The position numbers and the translations under genes are program-made. From Sulfurospirillum diekertiae (GTDB lineage: Bacteria > Campylobacterota > Campylobacteria > Campylobacterales > Sulfurospirillaceae), in contig NZ_CP039734.2 in the NCBI RefSeq assembly GCF_011769985.2, positions 1-64,000 on the forward strand: a stretch of DNA of 64,000 bases. Reading direction: 5' to 3'. Of this stretch, positions 29,794 to 53,398 are shown piece after piece (within the stretch, counting starts at the first letter, position 1; each line of letters starts with the position of its first letter). The notes beneath the pieces were generated by a model. The model did not search any database. It saw nothing but the letters and a program-made list of their open reading frames with translations, and was not told the DNA's origin.

Positions 29794-30408
29794 CTAGCGT
29801 TTGCGCCCTGTCAATAAAAAGATGGGGTAGTCTCCATACGGTTTTTTTGCCACACTGACGATTTCGATAGTGACATCTTCAAAGCCTGCTTTTTGCGCCC
29901 ACGTGGCAAACTCTTCTTGGTCAAATCCAAAGTGAAACACGCCCATATCTTCGGTGTGAAACGTGCCATCTTCTTTGTCCAAATCCGCTAAAGCGATGGT
30001 TCCCCCGCTGTTAAGCAAACGGTAAAACGTGTGAAAAAGCGCTTGCACATCTTCGACGTGATGAATGGTCATGGAAGAGATGATGCCATCAAAGGTTGCA
30101 TCAACCTCTGTATTGACCAAGTCGATTTCAAGCATCTCAAGTTCACACGGCAATTGCTCTTTTTTGGCACGAAGCGCTTCATTCATCGAAGGCGAGATGT
30201 CGATGGTTGTCATTTTGCGCACAAACGGTGCGATCTGTTCGGTCAAAAGCCCTGTGCCTGAGCCAAAGTCCATCACATGGGTTGTGGTTTTATCGTAGAT
30301 AAGTCTCTCTAAAATAGCTTCGCCAATGTTTTTAACGTTGTTGGTTCGTGTAACTTCTTTTTCGTATGTTTTTGATTTTTCATGAAAATAGTCTTTGGAG
30401 GGTTGCAT
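29794..30408 (-). CDS. Class I SAM-dependent methyltransferase
   Basis: The 204-residue protein has the Rossmann-type SAM motifs: VMDFGSGTGLLTEQIAPF (motif I, about 40-57), TIDISPSM (motif II), and FDGIISSMTIHHVED plus LLNSGGTIALADLD (motifs IV-V). The acceptor substrate is unknown; UbiE-type small-molecule methyltransferases look similar. It stands alone, convergent with the AraC-family gene, with a TTACATGTAA copy (29763-29772) in the shared 3' spacer. Confidence 0.85.
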   Translation of the reverse strand: MQPSKDYFHEKSKTYEKEVTRTNNVKNIGEAILERLIYDKTTTHVMDFGSGTGLLTEQIAPFVRKMTTIDISPSMNEALRAKKEQLPCELEMLEIDLVNTEVDATFDGIISSMTIHHVEDVQALFHTFYRLLNSGGTIALADLDKEDGTFHTEDMGVFHFGFDQEEFATWAQKAGFEDVTIEIVSVAKKPYGDYPIFLLTGRKR

Positions 30409-30489: not shown

Positions 30490-31284
30490 TTAACCAATTA
30501 CAAATGACGTGTATCCTACCACGCGACTTGCATCTTTACTGTGCGCATAACTGGTTCGGTAGTCTAAAAAATGGGCTTGAAAGTTGTGTGAAAGTGCGCT
30601 TTGAACCATCGCTTTGACACCCGTTATACCGCATGCTTCGCATCCATGAGAGAGCGCATGAAGGTCAAGATGCGAAATTGCTTCTATGCACGTATGATCG
30701 AGCTTATTGGCTTCCTCTTCCGTGTAAAAATGGCTGAGATCGGTGCTGATAACCACCAGTGTTTTTTCATCGCTTAGCACTTCGTCGATGAGTGTTGAGA
30801 GCTCGCTGTGAGAGATGTCTCCATAGACGATTTCAACGACTTTAGCGTGTTTGAAATACTGTCGAATAAAAGGCATTTGCACTTCGGTGGAGTGTTCCTC
30901 ATGTGCCATAGGGTGAAAGTCTAAAAAGGCAAATTTTCGCTTAAGGGCATAACTGAATGCTAAGTCGATTTCTATTTCGCCACACGGTGTATGGTATGCC
31001 TCCAAAAGGGCAATGGAAGCCCCTGCTACGTAGATGCGGTGACTAGGACCAATGACAACCAAACGTTCAACATCGGAGCATTTGGATGCGGTATAGTGGT
31101 AAGCAAGATTGGCGGTATAGCCACTGTAAATGTAGCCCGCATGAGGAACAATGAGCGCGCGGGGTATAACATCGAGTGCTATGTTGGGCATCGCTTTATC
31201 AAAATGATCGAACATGTGTTTTATTTCACTGCAGACGTCAGGGTAAAACATCCCAGCTACAGCAGCTTTACGGTGTTTATTCAT
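30490..31284 (-). CDS. amrB: AmmeMemoRadiSam system protein B (MEMO1-like)
   Basis: A 264-residue member of the MEMO1 family, structurally related to extradiol dioxygenases. Conserved positions are visible: His in PHAGYIYSG, His in GPSHRIYV, the STDLSHF segment and Cys in CGITGVKAM; the human homologue uses such His/His/Cys ligands to bind metal. I chose ATG 31284 (MNKHRK) because it overlaps the radical SAM stop by eight bases; an upstream in-frame ATG at 31329 would add 15 residues inside that gene. It is the last of three co-oriented, overlapping genes. Confidence 0.88.
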   Translation of the reverse strand: MNKHRKAAVAGMFYPDVCSEIKHMFDHFDKAMPNIALDVIPRALIVPHAGYIYSGYTANLAYHYTASKCSDVERLVVIGPSHRIYVAGASIALLEAYHTPCGEIEIDLAFSYALKRKFAFLDFHPMAHEEHSTEVQMPFIRQYFKHAKVVEIVYGDISHSELSTLIDEVLSDEKTLVVISTDLSHFYTEEEANKLDHTCIEAISHLDLHALSHGCEACGITGVKAMVQSALSHNFQAHFLDYRTSYAHSKDASRVVGYTSFVIG

Positions 31285-32266
31285 CAAAAACTCCTGTGAG
31301 TTTGGTATTGCATTTTGGACAGCATCCATCTACGAGATAGTTTTCCATCACTTCGAAGCGTTTTCGTGTGATCAAAATAGCATTACATGTAACGCATCTC
31401 GTAGGATTTTCAAGCCCGACATTCCCAATATAGATGTGTTTAAGTCCTACATTTTTGCCAAGCGTTTCGGCACGTTTAAGTGTTTCAATAGAAGTCGAAG
31501 GAAGCCCTTGCTCATGATAGTCAGGATGAAAAGCACTGATATGCCATGGTGTCTCAACGCCAAGCTCTTTGGCAATAAAGGAAGCGATAGAATTCAATTC
31601 TTCATCGGAGTCGTTTTTGGTGGGGACGATAAGTGTAGTAACCTCGATCCAAATGCCATTACGCTTGAAGTGCTTGAGGTTTTCCAAAATAGTTTCAAGC
31701 CCTCCTCCGAGCTCTTTTTTATAGTAGTCGTGGTTGAAAGATTTGAGATCAACATTCGCCGCATCAATAATGCCTACCATATCATCAATCACTTCACTGG
31801 ATTCAAAGCCATTGGTGACGAAGATATTTTTCATTCCTTTTTCATGAGCCAAAATGGCGATATCTTTAGCATAGGGATAGAAAATGGTGGGTTCATTGTA
31901 GGTGTAGGCGATGGAAGCACATTCGTATTTGAGCGCCATTTCGATAATCTGTTGGGGGGCAAAATACTCTTTTACATGTAAAGATTTTTCTTGCGAAATA
32001 CTCCAGTTTTGACAGAAAGGACATTTGAAATTACAACCAATCGTTCCGATCGAAAAGGCTCTGGTGTCAGGTAAAAAGTGGTAGAGCGGTTTTTTCTCCA
32101 CAGGGTCAATGTGCATGGCTACGGGATGTCCATACACCAGATTTTTGATAGTTCCATCGACATTTTGATTGACACCGCAGATGCCTATTTGTCCCTCTTT
32201 AAGATGACAGCAGTGCGCACAGAGTAAGCAAACCAGACGGGAGCCTTCAGTCTTAAAATAGTGCAT
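31277..32266 (-). CDS. amrS: AmmeMemoRadiSam system radical SAM enzyme
   Basis: The 329-residue radical SAM protein carries CNFKCPFC (about 78-85), the [4Fe-4S] motif that cleaves SAM. It starts with a cysteine/histidine-rich segment (CLLCAHCCHLKEGQIGICGV) and ends in a rubredoxin-like CVTC...CPKC zinc site. It resembles pyruvate formate-lyase activating enzymes, but no glycyl radical partner is adjacent; instead it sits between AMMECR1-like and MEMO1-like genes, overlapping each by one and eight bases. The substrate is not established to my knowledge. Two TTACATGTAA copies lie inside (31383, 31972). Confidence 0.9.
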   Translation of the reverse strand: MHYFKTEGSRLVCLLCAHCCHLKEGQIGICGVNQNVDGTIKNLVYGHPVAMHIDPVEKKPLYHFLPDTRAFSIGTIGCNFKCPFCQNWSISQEKSLHVKEYFAPQQIIEMALKYECASIAYTYNEPTIFYPYAKDIAILAHEKGMKNIFVTNGFESSEVIDDMVGIIDAANVDLKSFNHDYYKKELGGGLETILENLKHFKRNGIWIEVTTLIVPTKNDSDEELNSIASFIAKELGVETPWHISAFHPDYHEQGLPSTSIETLKRAETLGKNVGLKHIYIGNVGLENPTRCVTCNAILITRKRFEVMENYLVDGCCPKCNTKLTGVFDE

Positions 32267-32808
32267 TATTTCACCTTTTCAACCCTGTAATACCAAATCT
32301 CAGGATGGCTTTCCAAGCAATCAGGTGCTAACCCCGCTTTTTGGCATAGATGTGAAAAAAAGAGTTCAAAGGTTGGCAGTTGTTCCCACACTTGGGGTAA
32401 AAAGGTTGCTTTTCGAGACTCTTTTTGAAGAATAATGCCATCCATTCCCACCGTAACTTTGCTTTTGAGGTCATTGGTATTTTCATATAAGATGGGTTGG
32501 GGTTCACTCAAAAGAGAGATTTCAATCTTTACATGTAAAAACTCTTCGGGGCTGAGCGGATAGAAACGTGGATCATCAAAAGCAGCTGCTTTGGCGTTAT
32601 GTATAAGGTCATCTAGAAGAGGTCTATGGGCTATGAGTGAGCCGATACAGCCACGCAGTTGACCATCAAGGGTGAGTGTTACAAACGTAGCTTTAGGAGT
32701 TGAAAATTCAGGATGTGCTTGCACTAAAGCTTTTGGATTCAAAGTAGATGTATGGTTAAAGCTGTCACTGATCGCCTGCTTGGCAATTTCTAAGAGTACG
32801 TTTTGCAC
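32266..32808 (-). CDS. amrA: AmmeMemoRadiSam system protein A (AMMECR1-like)
   Basis: A 180-residue AMMECR1-domain protein with the family signature LRGCIGSL (about 62-69) and AAAFDDPRFYPLSPEE. I selected the GTG at 32808 as start because AAAGGAGGCGCC is ideally placed before it; a longer in-frame ORF to 32940 would run into the divergent promoter and lacks a ribosome binding site. It is first in the amrA-amrS-amrB order, with a one-base TAATG overlap to amrS. The biochemical role is unknown. A TTACATGTAA copy lies at 32529. Confidence 0.88.
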   Translation of the reverse strand: MQNVLLEIAKQAISDSFNHTSTLNPKALVQAHPEFSTPKATFVTLTLDGQLRGCIGSLIAHRPLLDDLIHNAKAAAFDDPRFYPLSPEEFLHVKIEISLLSEPQPILYENTNDLKSKVTVGMDGIILQKESRKATFLPQVWEQLPTFELFFSHLCQKAGLAPDCLESHPEIWYYRVEKVK

Positions 32809-32875
32809 GGCGCCTCCTTTACGAAAGTGTATTATATGATAAAATGGCTGATAGGTTATACAAAAAGGAATCGTC

Positions 32876-33376
32876 ATGGTACTGGCAATTTTAGCGCATA
32901 CTCCCGTGTGGGTTTTTCTGCTCTTTGGTGTGTTACTCATATTAGGCTGGATGCAAAGTCGTGATCGTAAGGTTTCTTATGTGCGTGCGTTTATATTGCC
33001 TTGCATGATGATAATTTTCTCCATATACGGCGTTGCCTCCGCATTTGGCATGAGTATTGGGATTGTGGCGTGGAGTGTAGGAATGATGGCGATGATGGCA
33101 CTGGGAATTCGCATAAGAGCTTTTTACAATGTGGTTTTTATGGCAGAATATAACGCTTTTGCGATCAAAGGAAGTTGGCTTTGGTTGACTCTGATGATGG
33201 TCATTTTTTGGCTTAAATTTGCAGTAGGTGTAGCACTTGCCAGAGAATTAGCCATTGTCACTGAGCTATGGTTTATTTTGAGTGTTAGTTTGTGCTATGG
33301 GTTACTCAGCGGTATTTTCTTAGTGCGCATGGTTATTTTGTGGAAGATTAAAAGCTTACATATAAAAACGATCTAA
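32876..33376 (+). CDS. DUF6622-like integral membrane protein
   Basis: A 166-residue protein with about five membrane helices and a short basic C-terminus. The N-terminal AHTPVWVFLLFGVLLILGWMQSR resembles the DUF6622 family of uncharacterised membrane proteins. It is divergent from the amr operon across 67 bases. A TATATGATAAAAT-like promoter region at about 32834-32844 precedes it. Function unknown. Confidence 0.7.
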   Translation: MVLAILAHTPVWVFLLFGVLLILGWMQSRDRKVSYVRAFILPCMMIIFSIYGVASAFGMSIGIVAWSVGMMAMMALGIRIRAFYNVVFMAEYNAFAIKGSWLWLTLMMVIFWLKFAVGVALARELAIVTELWFILSVSLCYGLLSGIFLVRMVILWKIKSLHIKTI

Positions 33377-50461: not shown

Positions 50462-51196
50462 TCAAAAATTTCTTAATTCTATAGGTATGAGAGGGCTGAG
50501 CTGGCTCAAATCAAACTGATTTTGTTGCATTTTTGTTTCACCCAATGTGGGCTCTACATGTAAATAATTTTGAAGGTAATAGGTTCCACGATAACCTTTT
50601 ACATGTAAATCTTTTATGATGGTGTTAATGTCTATGGGAGTGAGTAAATCACTATGTAGTGTTGTACGAACCTCAAAGGGAATATCACTTTGAATCAGTA
50701 TTTTTAAACTCTCTTCAAAACGTTCACTATGGTGGTAATGTGTTAATGTTTCATACTGATCTAATGGAGCTTTATAATCAAGTGCAATGTAGTCTACAAG
50801 CTTTTTCATAATTAAATGTGCTAGTAACTCTGGATGAGAGCCATTGGTGTCGATTTTAATCTTATAATTTAATGCTTTAATCGCTTCGCAAAAGGGTTCA
50901 AGATTGGGATAAAGGGTACACTCTCCACCACTTAGTACAACACTATCCAGACGTCCTTGACGGCTTTGTAAAAATTCTATGGCAGTTTGGAGGCTAATGG
51001 TTCCACTGTCTCGTACGATTTGAGGATTGTAGCAATAGGGACAAGCCATATTGCATTTGGCAAACCAAAAGATAGACGCTAGATGATGGGGATAATCTAG
51101 CGTCGTAAATTTCGTAATACTATGAATTGCCTTATCGGCAAGGACATTTTTCAACAAATTGAACGCGCTCTCTATGCTCGCCAGTTTTTCCAACAT
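50462..51196 (-). CDS. nrdG: Anaerobic ribonucleotide reductase activating enzyme (radical SAM)
   Basis: NrdG uses SAM and a [4Fe-4S] cluster to install the glycyl radical of class III ribonucleotide reductase. The motif CNMACPYCYN (about residues 49-58) and LSGGECTLYPNLEPF are visible. At 244 residues it is of the longer bacterial type. The ORF start overlaps the small glycyl-radical gene by 65 bases; a later start such as a TTG near 51156 would still keep the catalytic core, so the N-terminus is uncertain. It lies directly downstream of the two nrdD genes. A TTACATGTAA copy lies at 50599. Confidence 0.88.
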   Translation of the reverse strand: MLEKLASIESAFNLLKNVLADKAIHSITKFTTLDYPHHLASIFWFAKCNMACPYCYNPQIVRDSGTISLQTAIEFLQSRQGRLDSVVLSGGECTLYPNLEPFCEAIKALNYKIKIDTNGSHPELLAHLIMKKLVDYIALDYKAPLDQYETLTHYHHSERFEESLKILIQSDIPFEVRTTLHSDLLTPIDINTIIKDLHVKGYRGTYYLQNYLHVEPTLGETKMQQNQFDLSQLSPLIPIELRNF

Positions 51197-51296
51197 TAAA
51201 ACTCTCTACGGGTCTGTGATAACCCATAACACGGGTATAAACAATACATTTGGTGCGTTTTTCTTTCAACTTCTCTAAAATTTCGGTTTGACTCAT
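51132..51296 (-). CDS. Separate glycyl-radical C-terminal segment of NrdD, 54 residues
   Basis: This short ORF starts in a TCATGA overlap (ATGA) with the stop of the large nrdD and has its own AAAAGGAG ribosome binding site inside the nrdD end. The product contains YTRVMGYHRPVESFN and GKTGEHRER, matching the end of ordinary class III reductases (RV-x-GY-x-RPV-x3-N-x-GK-x2-E). The glycine of RVMGY (Gly25) would be the radical site. It also has Cys17 and a terminal CPC. The large protein at 51293-53398 ends at its zinc site and lacks this segment, so the two probably form one enzyme. Confidence 0.85.
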   Translation of the reverse strand: MSQTEILEKLKEKRTKCIVYTRVMGYHRPVESFNVGKTGEHRERVQFVEKCPCR

Positions 51297-53398
51297 GATG
51301 CTTCTCCTTTTCTGTAGTGTTCTACTAATTCTTCATCGCATTTAGGGCAAAATTCATGCTCGCCACTGATGTAGCCATGTTTCTCACACACCGAAAAGAC
51401 CGGTGTGATTGTAAGGTAAGGCATACGGTAGTTGGTGATCACGTTTCTAACCAACTTTTTACACGCTTCACTGGAACTAATGCGCTCTTTCATGTAAAGA
51501 TGCAGAACGGTTCCACCTGTGTAGGAGCATTGTAGGTCATCTTGCAGATCCAATGCTTCAAAAGGATCATCGGTAAAATTCGCAGGAAGTTGAGAGGAGT
51601 TGGTGTAGTACACATTTTTTCCCGATCCTGCTTGGATGATCTCAGGGTAGCGTTTTTTATCTTCTTTCGCAAAACGGTACGTTGTACCCTCTGCTGGTGT
51701 TGCTTCAAGGTTGTAGAGATTCCCCGTCTCTTCTTGATATGTGACCATTTTATTGCGCACAAATTCTAAGATTTCGTGAGCAAATTCCATTCCATATGCA
51801 TCGGCAATATTGTGTTTATCATCCGTAAAATTGCGAATCATCTCGTTGATACCATTGACACCAATGGTTGAAAAATGACTGTTAAATCCTGGCAAATAAC
51901 GTGCTGTATACGGATAAAGTCCACGGTTGTACATCTCTTGGACAAATACACGTTTTTTCTCTAGTGTTGATTTGGCGAGGTCCATCAGGTATTCAAAGCG
52001 CTCCATCAACTCTTTTTTATTGCCTTTATAGAGATAGCCAAGTCGTGCCATATTGAGCGTCACAACGCCAATACTTCCCGTCATTTCAGCACTTCCGAAA
52101 AGTCCACCGCCACGTTTTAAAAGCTCTCTAAGATCGAGTTGCAAACGACAGCACATGGAGCGTACATGGCCAGGTTTATAGGCTTTTGGGTTTTCTACAA
52201 GTTTGCCATCAGCATCTCTCACGTATTGGCTTCCAATAAAGTTTTGAAAGTATGATGAGCCAATTTTGGCGGTATTCTCAAACAGTAAGTCCGTGTTTTC
52301 ACCATCCCAATCAAAATCTTCGGTGATATTCACCGTTGGAATTGGGAAGGTGAAAGGCTGACCTGTTTTATCGCCCTCGGTCATCACTTCGTAGTAAGCT
52401 TTATTGATGAGATTCATCTCTTTTTGAAAATGCTTGTAGGTCATGGCTTCAAGAGAATTGACACCACGTTTTTGTGCCTCTTCCATAAGCTCAGCATCGT
52501 TAATTTCTTTAAAAAGATGACGTTGGTTTGATGTTGGAATCTGATCGGCTAAGTCTTTAGGCACGGTCCAGTCAATCGTAATGTTGGTAAACGGACTTTG
52601 TCCCCAACGTGCAGGAACATTGAGGTTATAAATAAAGCTACGAATCGCTTTTTTGATCTCTTTATAGGAGATTTTATCCTTGAAAGCATATGGTGCTAAA
52701 TAGGTATCAAATGAGCTAAACGCTTGAGCACCCGCCCATTCGCTTTGGAGAATGCCTAAAAAGTTTGCCATTTGTCCGAGTGCTTCGCGAAAGTGCATTG
52801 GAGGGCGGCTCTCAACACGACCACGAACACCGTTAAAGCCCTCATCTAAAAGCACGCGAAGGCTCCAACCAGCGCAATACGCTGTTAAACAGTCTAAATC
52901 ATGGATATGATAGTCACCATTACGATGGGCTAATCCCTCTTCTTTGGAGTAAATTTTGTCAAGCCAGTAATTAGCAATCACTTTACCTGCAGTGTTATTG
53001 ACTAACCCAGCGTTTGAGTAACCGGTGTTAGAGTTTGCTTTAATTCTCCAGTCACTTTTTCCAATATACTCTTCAATTGTTTGCGTGGAATTGACATAGG
53101 TCGTATCTTCATTGAGTCCGTAGATATGCTCACGCTGCATTTTATGGGTATGTCGGTAGAGAATAAAGGAGCGCATAACGTCAAAATAACGTGTTTTATA
53201 AAGCTCTTGTTCGATCATATTTTGGAAGTCTTCAACCGCTGCTACCCGTTTTTTTTCGATACGCTTGAGTATCTCTTGAAAGATGCTTGCATCGTAGGTT
53301 ACACCTTCACTTTTAAAGGCTTTTTTAATGGCGTCTTCGATTTTATAAGGCTGAAATTCTTCTGTCGTTCCGTCACGTTTGAGTACTTTGGTTAGCAT
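51293..53398 (-). CDS. nrdD: Anaerobic ribonucleoside-triphosphate reductase, large part without glycyl-radical segment
   Basis: The 701-residue protein is the catalytic barrel of class III ribonucleotide reductase. It opens with an ATP-cone domain (LTKVLKRDGTTEEFQPYKIEDAIKKAF) for allosteric control, shows HIHDLDCLTAYCAGWSLR and the central NLNVPARWGQSPFTNITIDW, and ends in the zinc site region CEKHGYISGEHEFCPKCDEE. Complete homologues continue with an RV-x-GY glycyl-radical segment, which is missing here and supplied by the overlapping 54-residue gene. A promoter TATAAT lies 29 bases upstream (53427-53432). Confidence 0.95.
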   Translation of the reverse strand: MLTKVLKRDGTTEEFQPYKIEDAIKKAFKSEGVTYDASIFQEILKRIEKKRVAAVEDFQNMIEQELYKTRYFDVMRSFILYRHTHKMQREHIYGLNEDTTYVNSTQTIEEYIGKSDWRIKANSNTGYSNAGLVNNTAGKVIANYWLDKIYSKEEGLAHRNGDYHIHDLDCLTAYCAGWSLRVLLDEGFNGVRGRVESRPPMHFREALGQMANFLGILQSEWAGAQAFSSFDTYLAPYAFKDKISYKEIKKAIRSFIYNLNVPARWGQSPFTNITIDWTVPKDLADQIPTSNQRHLFKEINDAELMEEAQKRGVNSLEAMTYKHFQKEMNLINKAYYEVMTEGDKTGQPFTFPIPTVNITEDFDWDGENTDLLFENTAKIGSSYFQNFIGSQYVRDADGKLVENPKAYKPGHVRSMCCRLQLDLRELLKRGGGLFGSAEMTGSIGVVTLNMARLGYLYKGNKKELMERFEYLMDLAKSTLEKKRVFVQEMYNRGLYPYTARYLPGFNSHFSTIGVNGINEMIRNFTDDKHNIADAYGMEFAHEILEFVRNKMVTYQEETGNLYNLEATPAEGTTYRFAKEDKKRYPEIIQAGSGKNVYYTNSSQLPANFTDDPFEALDLQDDLQCSYTGGTVLHLYMKERISSSEACKKLVRNVITNYRMPYLTITPVFSVCEKHGYISGEHEFCPKCDEELVEHYRKGEAS

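Follow-up and report, generated by a model that had tools for sequence, protein, structure and literature searches.

An ordinary AmmeMemoRadiSam trio in Sulfurospirillum diekertiae and an apparently exported sister lineage of the same protein families

Results

The three overlapping genes at 30490..32808 of the window (the whole stretch of 64,000 nucleotides from Sulfurospirillum diekertiae analysed here) are an ordinary, standard member of the known and widespread AmmeMemoRadiSam system, to which human MEMO1 and AMMECR1 are related. They encode an AMMECR1-like protein (A), a radical-SAM protein (S) and a MEMO1-like protein (B). Three results came from their comparison across genomes. First, the relation between the genes is asymmetric: S depends on B and practically never occurs without it, and B is independent of S. 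Second, the likeness of S to glycyl-radical activases should not be taken to imply that a glycyl-radical target is still to be found. Third, an export-signal-bearing sister of the system is apparently formed by B-A fusion proteins and by the S of one lineage, found mainly in Desulfobacterota.

Identification of the trio

The genes and their immediate surroundings are as follows.

32812..32819, minus strand: Shine-Dalgarno-like sequence AAGGAGGC, upstream of the GTG start of A; AAGGAGG stands shortly ahead of the GTG
32266..32808, minus strand: A, AMMECR1-like protein of 180 aa; GTG start at 32808, stop ending at 32266
32266..32266, minus strand: overlap of one base between the stop of A and the start of S
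31277..32266, minus strand: S, radical-SAM protein of 329 aa with CxxxCxxC, an N-terminal four-cysteine module and a C-terminal four-cysteine module
31277..31284, minus strand: overlap of eight bases, ATGAATAA, the start of B lying inside the end of S
30490..31284, minus strand: B, MEMO1-like protein of 264 aa; best start the ATG at 31284, end at 30490
29794..30408, minus strand, as B: class I methyltransferase downstream of B, with 81 bases between the genes

An earlier note on this DNA had named the trio and its A-S-B order, and both were confirmed. All three proteins passed the NCBI cut-offs in the profile scan. S scored 349.6 bits against TIGR04337 (cut-off 220) and B 239 bits against TIGR04336 (cut-off 26). 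A scored 197.7 bits against TIGR04335 (cut-off 99) and 155.8 bits against PF01871, both scores being taken on the longer ATG open reading frame 32266-32940 and not on the GTG form. With all three over the cut-offs in one genome, membership of the AmmeMemoRadiSam system was established, and the 2.78 Mb genome holds a single above-cut-off match for each of A, S and B. The trio has all the conserved cysteines and metal ligands of the system, is without signal peptides and differs from it in nothing notable; the overlapping A-S-B arrangement is one of several gene orders. Among the matches listed, the closest named relatives are from Campylobacterales MAGs. The one-base and eight-base overlaps were borne out at base 32266 and at 31277..31284. 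The neighbour at 32876-33376 lies on the strand opposite to the trio. The methyltransferase at 29794..30408 was considered as a fourth member and rejected: it is common only to the close relatives L026 and L041, and other genes stand there elsewhere, so it is not a conserved fourth part. No reaction for AmmeMemoRadiSam was found in the literature searched, in agreement with the earlier view that none is settled.

The same genome also encodes a second S-like radical-SAM protein (G000:C1:2429059-2430840, L032:7060-8841), which reached 117.7 bits, below the cut-off of 220. It is fused to a PF01497 periplasmic-binding-protein-like domain, and its gene follows one for a further PF01497 protein and one for a regulator of TOBE/LysR type, read as ModE-like. 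The same fusion is present in another genome, G122 (L033).

Active sites and predicted folds

The cysteines C13, C16, C20, C30, C78, C82, C85, C291, C294, C316 and C319 are invariant in the alignment of S, and C78, C82 and C85 form the CxxxCxxC motif. In A, 14 aligned rows show no variation in the LRGCIG motif or at 22 other positions, and solved relatives are 1wsc, 1zq7 and 1vaj. In B, H48, H82 and C218 are invariant in 18 aligned rows, likewise D182, H185 and H131. The trio is common in bacteria taken as anaerobes.

B belongs to the same fold family as human MEMO1 (3bcz and 7kq8; E 1.3e-41 by profile), with the His-His-Cys set conserved. A profile alignment to MEMO1 chains, through C244, placed H48, H82 and C218 of B on H49, H81 and C244 of MEMO1. 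Unlike human MEMO1, B is encoded together with A and S; to our knowledge human cells are without S. According to PMC11081632, human MEMO1 binds iron through H49, H81 and C244. The two histidine and one cysteine ligands expected of a MEMO1-type iron protein are therefore present in B, and the earlier note was right about metal-binding MEMO1 relatives. The same paper describes the MEMO iron site as similar to that of extradiol dioxygenases of the LigB/PCAD kind, and it reports no dioxygenase activity of MEMO1 with the substrates tried (PMC11081632). MEMO differs from these enzymes in having cysteine instead of glutamate.

For S, the best PDB match of the predicted fold was the PFL-activating enzyme 3cb8, with a TM of 0.82 on the target. 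The match was made with the S half of a model of L046, a relative of 57% identity in which S and B are fused. That AlphaFold model, from a 58-row alignment, has pLDDT mostly >90 in the S half. The B half of the fusion was not confidently folded (pLDDT mostly <50) and the joint arrangement is not visible in the model; therefore, no claim is made on the S-B interface.

S and the glycyl-radical activases

The PFL-activating enzyme is thus the closest solved fold to S, and the 4Fe-4S CxxxCxxC motif is common to both. The resemblance of S to glycyl-radical activases, pointed out earlier, was reproduced in sequence and in predicted fold. On this ground S could be the activase of a glycyl-radical enzyme, all the more as an anaerobic ribonucleotide reductase, NrdD, is encoded in the window at 51293-53398. 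The distribution across genomes speaks strongly against it. Proteins with PF01228 were found in none of 36 S-bearing Campylobacterota genomes, in contrast to 16 of the 114 without S, so that the PFL-type partner of the activating enzyme has no counterpart here. NRDD is present in 25 of the 36, and 11 of the 36 are without both. The NrdD of the window is accompanied by its own activase, NrdG2 (50462-51196), which scored 184.6 bits where 131 are required. A partner glycyl-radical enzyme lacking its own activase was searched for in this genome and none was found: there is no PF01228 protein, and NrdD goes with NrdG2. S also differs from the PFL-activating enzyme in its additional N- and C-terminal cysteine modules. 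It carries YTYNEP at the place of what we take to be the GGE motif of activases, which we count against an activase role. Since 11 of 36 S genomes are without any known target and none has PF01228, the activase role is ruled out for known targets, and we give it next to no weight overall. As had been noted, no glycyl-radical target adjoins the trio; NrdD and its activase lie about 20 kb off.

The anaerobic ribonucleotide reductase of the window is split. Its 701-aa NrdD core (51293-53398, minus strand) is without the glycyl-radical loop. The loop stands on a separate gene of 54 aa (51132-51296, minus strand), which matches TIGR02487 positions 549-580 at 22.5 bits and overlaps NrdD by 4 bases; NrdG2 follows (50462-51196, minus strand). 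Of 75 Campylobacterota genomes with NRDD, about 40, counted by eye, show a similar match in two pieces.

The iterated palindrome

Three copies of a palindrome lie in the operon.

31383..31392: TTACATGTAA, inside S, a genus-wide repeat
31972..31981: TTACATGTAA, inside S
32529..32538: TTACATGTAA, inside A

All three copies reported earlier are real; an operon-specific meaning is not upheld, the repeat being genus-wide. TTACATGTAA occurs 24 times in the window against 0.17 expected. The highly iterated palindrome TTTACATGTAAA has 24 window sites (for example 9308, 31971 and 54315) and 791 sites in the whole genome, against 1 for a reversed control word. Its count per genome was 14-791 across the 13 members of the genus that were examined and 0-1 in 8 genomes outside it. 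Because of this genus-wide spread, the palindromes were rejected as a regulatory mark of the A-S-B operon.

Co-occurrence, gene order and fusions

Among 150 Campylobacterota genomes, S was over the cut-off in 36, B in 40 and A in 41. Every one of the 36 S-bearing genomes has both A and B, and B is present in 4 of the 114 S-less genomes. A and B stand adjacent without S in four genomes of one family, and A alone occurs in one genome. Since A and B occur without S in those four, S must be dispensable for some A-B function. Gene order varies within the 36: A-S-B stand together in 10 (including G044, with S and B fused), S is beside B in 15 (including G009, which also has a B-A fusion), A is beside S in 1, A is beside B with S elsewhere in 4, and all three are apart in 6. 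The full overlapping A-S-B operon is a minority state in Campylobacterota. The single overlapping operon described for the window is therefore real here, but it cannot serve as the functional link, which is carried by co-occurrence. The near-absence of S without B could not be read from the window alone, and neither could the existence elsewhere of apparently exported forms of A, S and B. In the tree of S, the Campylobacterota S proteins unlinked to A or B form their own branch of 14 rows, tandem pairs included. Adjacent tandem copies of this unlinked type are found at L013, L020 and L035 (genomes G029, G036 and G013).

Scanning of genome contigs from other collections gave at least 80 S loci. 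In 46 genomes of these collections, chosen through S, B was present in 45 and A in 39; the genomes belonging to the remaining 34 loci were set aside. One S-bearing genome, G163, has neither A nor B by the searches used. S rarely adjoins A or B outside Campylobacterota and a few other groups, and in most other phyla it stands alone. This last fact, together with the genomes that hold A alone or A and B alone, would suit three neighbours with separate jobs. The near-perfect co-occurrence, the gene overlaps and the fusions across phyla all oppose such independence, which we regard as very improbable.

Two kinds of fusion are known from the loci. One relative (L046/G044) has an S-B fusion of 597 aa, and 34 B-A fusion proteins were found among the loci examined. 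By linking S with B in one case and B with A in the other, these fusions argue for one physical complex. On the strength of such gene arrangements, the three proteins are suggested to work as one machine.

The dependence of S on B, and not the reverse, could also mean that S is a maturase which modifies B or A itself by a radical reaction, for instance at the conserved cysteine close to the metal, after which the matured A-B pair acts alone. The S-B fusion would agree with this, as would the closest fold, the PFL-activase, which acts on a protein. A radical-SAM type related to S has in addition been proposed to modify or process peptides (PMC7159879). The invariant residues of A and B are nevertheless kept where S is missing (L178 in the alignment of B; L178 and L179 in that of A). 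Maturation by S can therefore not be general, and we consider it unlikely as the main role of S.

An apparently exported sister lineage

Of the 34 B-A fusions, 30 have a hydrophobic Sec-like signal stretch ahead of the first domain. Two are without it (L149, slightly below the threshold, and L152), and two more are cut by contig ends. A signal-like stretch was found in 7 of 76 proteins with B alone and in 6 of 48 with A alone, two of the latter being cut. All these counts follow a simple hydrophobicity rule applied to the loci examined, with duplicate proteins removed.

A twin-arginine signal was seen on the S next to signal-bearing B-A fusions in L150 and L157, and also on the S of L076. With the S of L157 as query, relatives were found in 187 of the 198 genomes searched from the phylum to which G179 belongs, taken as Desulfobacterota, and 30 of these loci were examined as the exported-S set. 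The relaxed Tat motif (RR/KR/RK)x[FLIVM][LIVMFAK] is present in 27 of 28 N-termini of the exported branch against 3 of 112 other S; shuffled controls gave a mean of 3.0 and a maximum of 8 of 28. The strict motif RRxF[LIVMF] is present in 14 of 28 against 0 of 112, with a shuffle mean of 0.11. The 28 leave out L181 (the query itself) and L205 (cut by a contig end), and the 112 exclude L076, which bears the motif, and L120. A cruder Tat classifier called 26 of 30 as Tat and four as 'cyt', with one false Tat (L120). The four comprise L205, incomplete at its contig end, and L186-L188, whose RK lies outside the classifier pattern. Curated profiles gave less. Only four of the 29 exported S matched PF10518 (TAT_signal), the best at E 0.077; for 29 control S this profile is absent from the list of 25 families. 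TIGR01409 reached 14.7 bits in L193, under its cut-off of 16.7, and is not among the 25 families listed for either the exported set or the control set. Because the curated Tat profiles support it weakly, the export call rests on the motif and the hydrophobic stretch.

In a quick tree of S, labelled by hand (L186-L188 as exported, L120 and L086 as not exported), one change suffices for the exported state; the support is 95-97 for the wider group and 38 for the exact exported clade. None of the 11 conserved cysteines is lost in the exported S, and of the 66 positions near-invariant in other S they keep 49, so that they look like working radical-SAM folds. Relatives of B, A or B-A, mostly signal-bearing, are present in all 30 exported-S genomes, and in 14 of the 30 such a relative lies within 5 kb of S. 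A membrane protein of 716-748 aa, in which a set of helices stands on either side of a spermidine-synthase-like domain (PF01564), is encoded near B-A in L150, L152, L153 and L157; it is seen in 12 of the 30 exported-S loci. Its central domain is predicted to lie outside, as judged by eye from the positive-inside rule, and its catalytic motif looks degenerate, by our own reading. In L151, the gene after S and B-A encodes a DsbD_2 membrane protein; the S of L120 itself carries a fused DsbD_2 domain. All 34 Campylobacterota S examined are of the non-exported kind, and the window trio is without signal peptides: A, S and B start at the conserved domain.

Two further loci are recorded here. In L106 (6086-6313), an open reading frame of 75 aa with a twin-arginine-like start stands between a signal-less S and a lipoprotein-like B. 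It reached 13.2 bits against TIGR02811 (formate_TAT; cut-off 48) and is possibly a partner carrying S out. In L153 (9787-11085), the S has a prefix with CLRCH, a haem-c-like motif, which might fit an extracytoplasmic protein.

Neighbouring genes

S stands in a row with UbiA in three loci, all from related bacteria: the order is methyltransferase-S-UbiA-flavoprotein-UbiD in L093, methyltransferase-S-UbiA in L109 and S-UbiA in L088. A flavoprotein-like gene stands in two of these rows, one of which also contains UbiD; Pfam was run on the genes of L093 only. We take the UbiA, flavoprotein and UbiD genes of these loci to be late menaquinone genes. Methyltransferases make up 7 of 139 genes adjacent to S, compared with 4 of the 545 that lie at a distance of at least four genes. 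The other neighbours of S or the trio are mixed and include nth, RtcB/archease, ThiI-like, GltX, QueH and RsmE/MtaB-like genes. The GltX-like gene (glutamyl-tRNA synthetase cluster) lies 7-435 bases after B in L123, L128, L135, L139 and L142, the L128 copy being Pfam-checked. MEMO-family genes of another branch stand beside a HypB-like (cobW/HypB/UreG) gene at L166:1809-3395 and in L162.

Discussion

We favour one cooperating system, with an A-B core, a metal in B, and an S radical that primes a substrate for B without glycyl-radical activation; taken as a whole, this reading falls a little short of an even chance. A and B would form the substrate-binding core, with a mononuclear metal in B. 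S would make the 5'-deoxyadenosyl radical and oxidise or otherwise prime the same substrate, which would then be passed directly to the metal site of B. In this organism the trio would act in the cytoplasm, as the lack of signal peptides suggests. Against one system stand the 6 of 36 Campylobacterota S genomes with all three genes apart, and G163, without A and B.

As to the substrate, the trio might modify a nucleic-acid base, for example in tRNA or rRNA. RNA-related genes are indeed among the neighbours (GltX beside B in five loci, RtcB/archease, ThiI-like, QueH, RsmE/MtaB-like), and Burroughs and others, in 2019, reportedly proposed base modification and isoprenoid modification as the two contexts of the system. 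Each RNA neighbour is sporadic, however, and the apparently exported branch of the same families is ill-suited to an RNA-only substrate; base modification seems distinctly unlikely to us. The occurrence of the same families in cytoplasmic and export-signal forms points to a substrate reachable on both sides of the membrane, and not to tRNA only; an export-signal sister of all three proteins likewise argues for a substrate met on both sides. We therefore lean towards a membrane-bound isoprenoid, quinone or peptide as a better fit. A quinone or isoprenoid stays a leaning because RNA-related neighbours also occur: the mixed neighbours fit RNA as well, and the quinone loci are only three.

For the sister lineage we tentatively propose a Tat-exported, folded S, a Sec-exported MEMO-AMMECR1 fusion or lipoprotein and a membrane partner, with the window trio as the cytoplasmic twin; it is a possible picture, and one that we would doubt sooner than assert. 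The Tat pathway would carry the sister S out of the cell in folded form, its iron-sulphur cluster in place, and S would join the Sec-exported fusion or lipoprotein. The membrane partner would be the 14-helix protein with the degenerate spermidine-synthase-like domain, or a DsbD-type electron carrier as in L120 and L151. The substrate of the window trio would be of the same kind, probably bound to the membrane. We know of no SAM in the periplasm. If the exported S still cleaves SAM, it would be a periplasmic radical-SAM enzyme needing its own SAM or SAM-like nucleotide, for which the membrane protein is a candidate supplier. Either the exported S uses an imported nucleotide, or its cluster has another use, or its activity is limited to the time before export. 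The literature searched gave no paper on an exported radical-SAM protein, and word searches of this kind cannot prove absence.

MEMO1 is tied to the motility of cancer cells (PMC11081632). The comparison adds three things to the picture of the family: the activase reading is out, S follows B and not the reverse, and the apparently exported branch gives a new handle. MEMO1 and AMMECR1 are conserved human proteins linked to inherited disease, and we know of no reaction for either. Such a reaction is most simply sought in the bacterial trio. An exported radical-SAM protein, if true, would break the usual view of this chemistry as confined to the cytoplasm.
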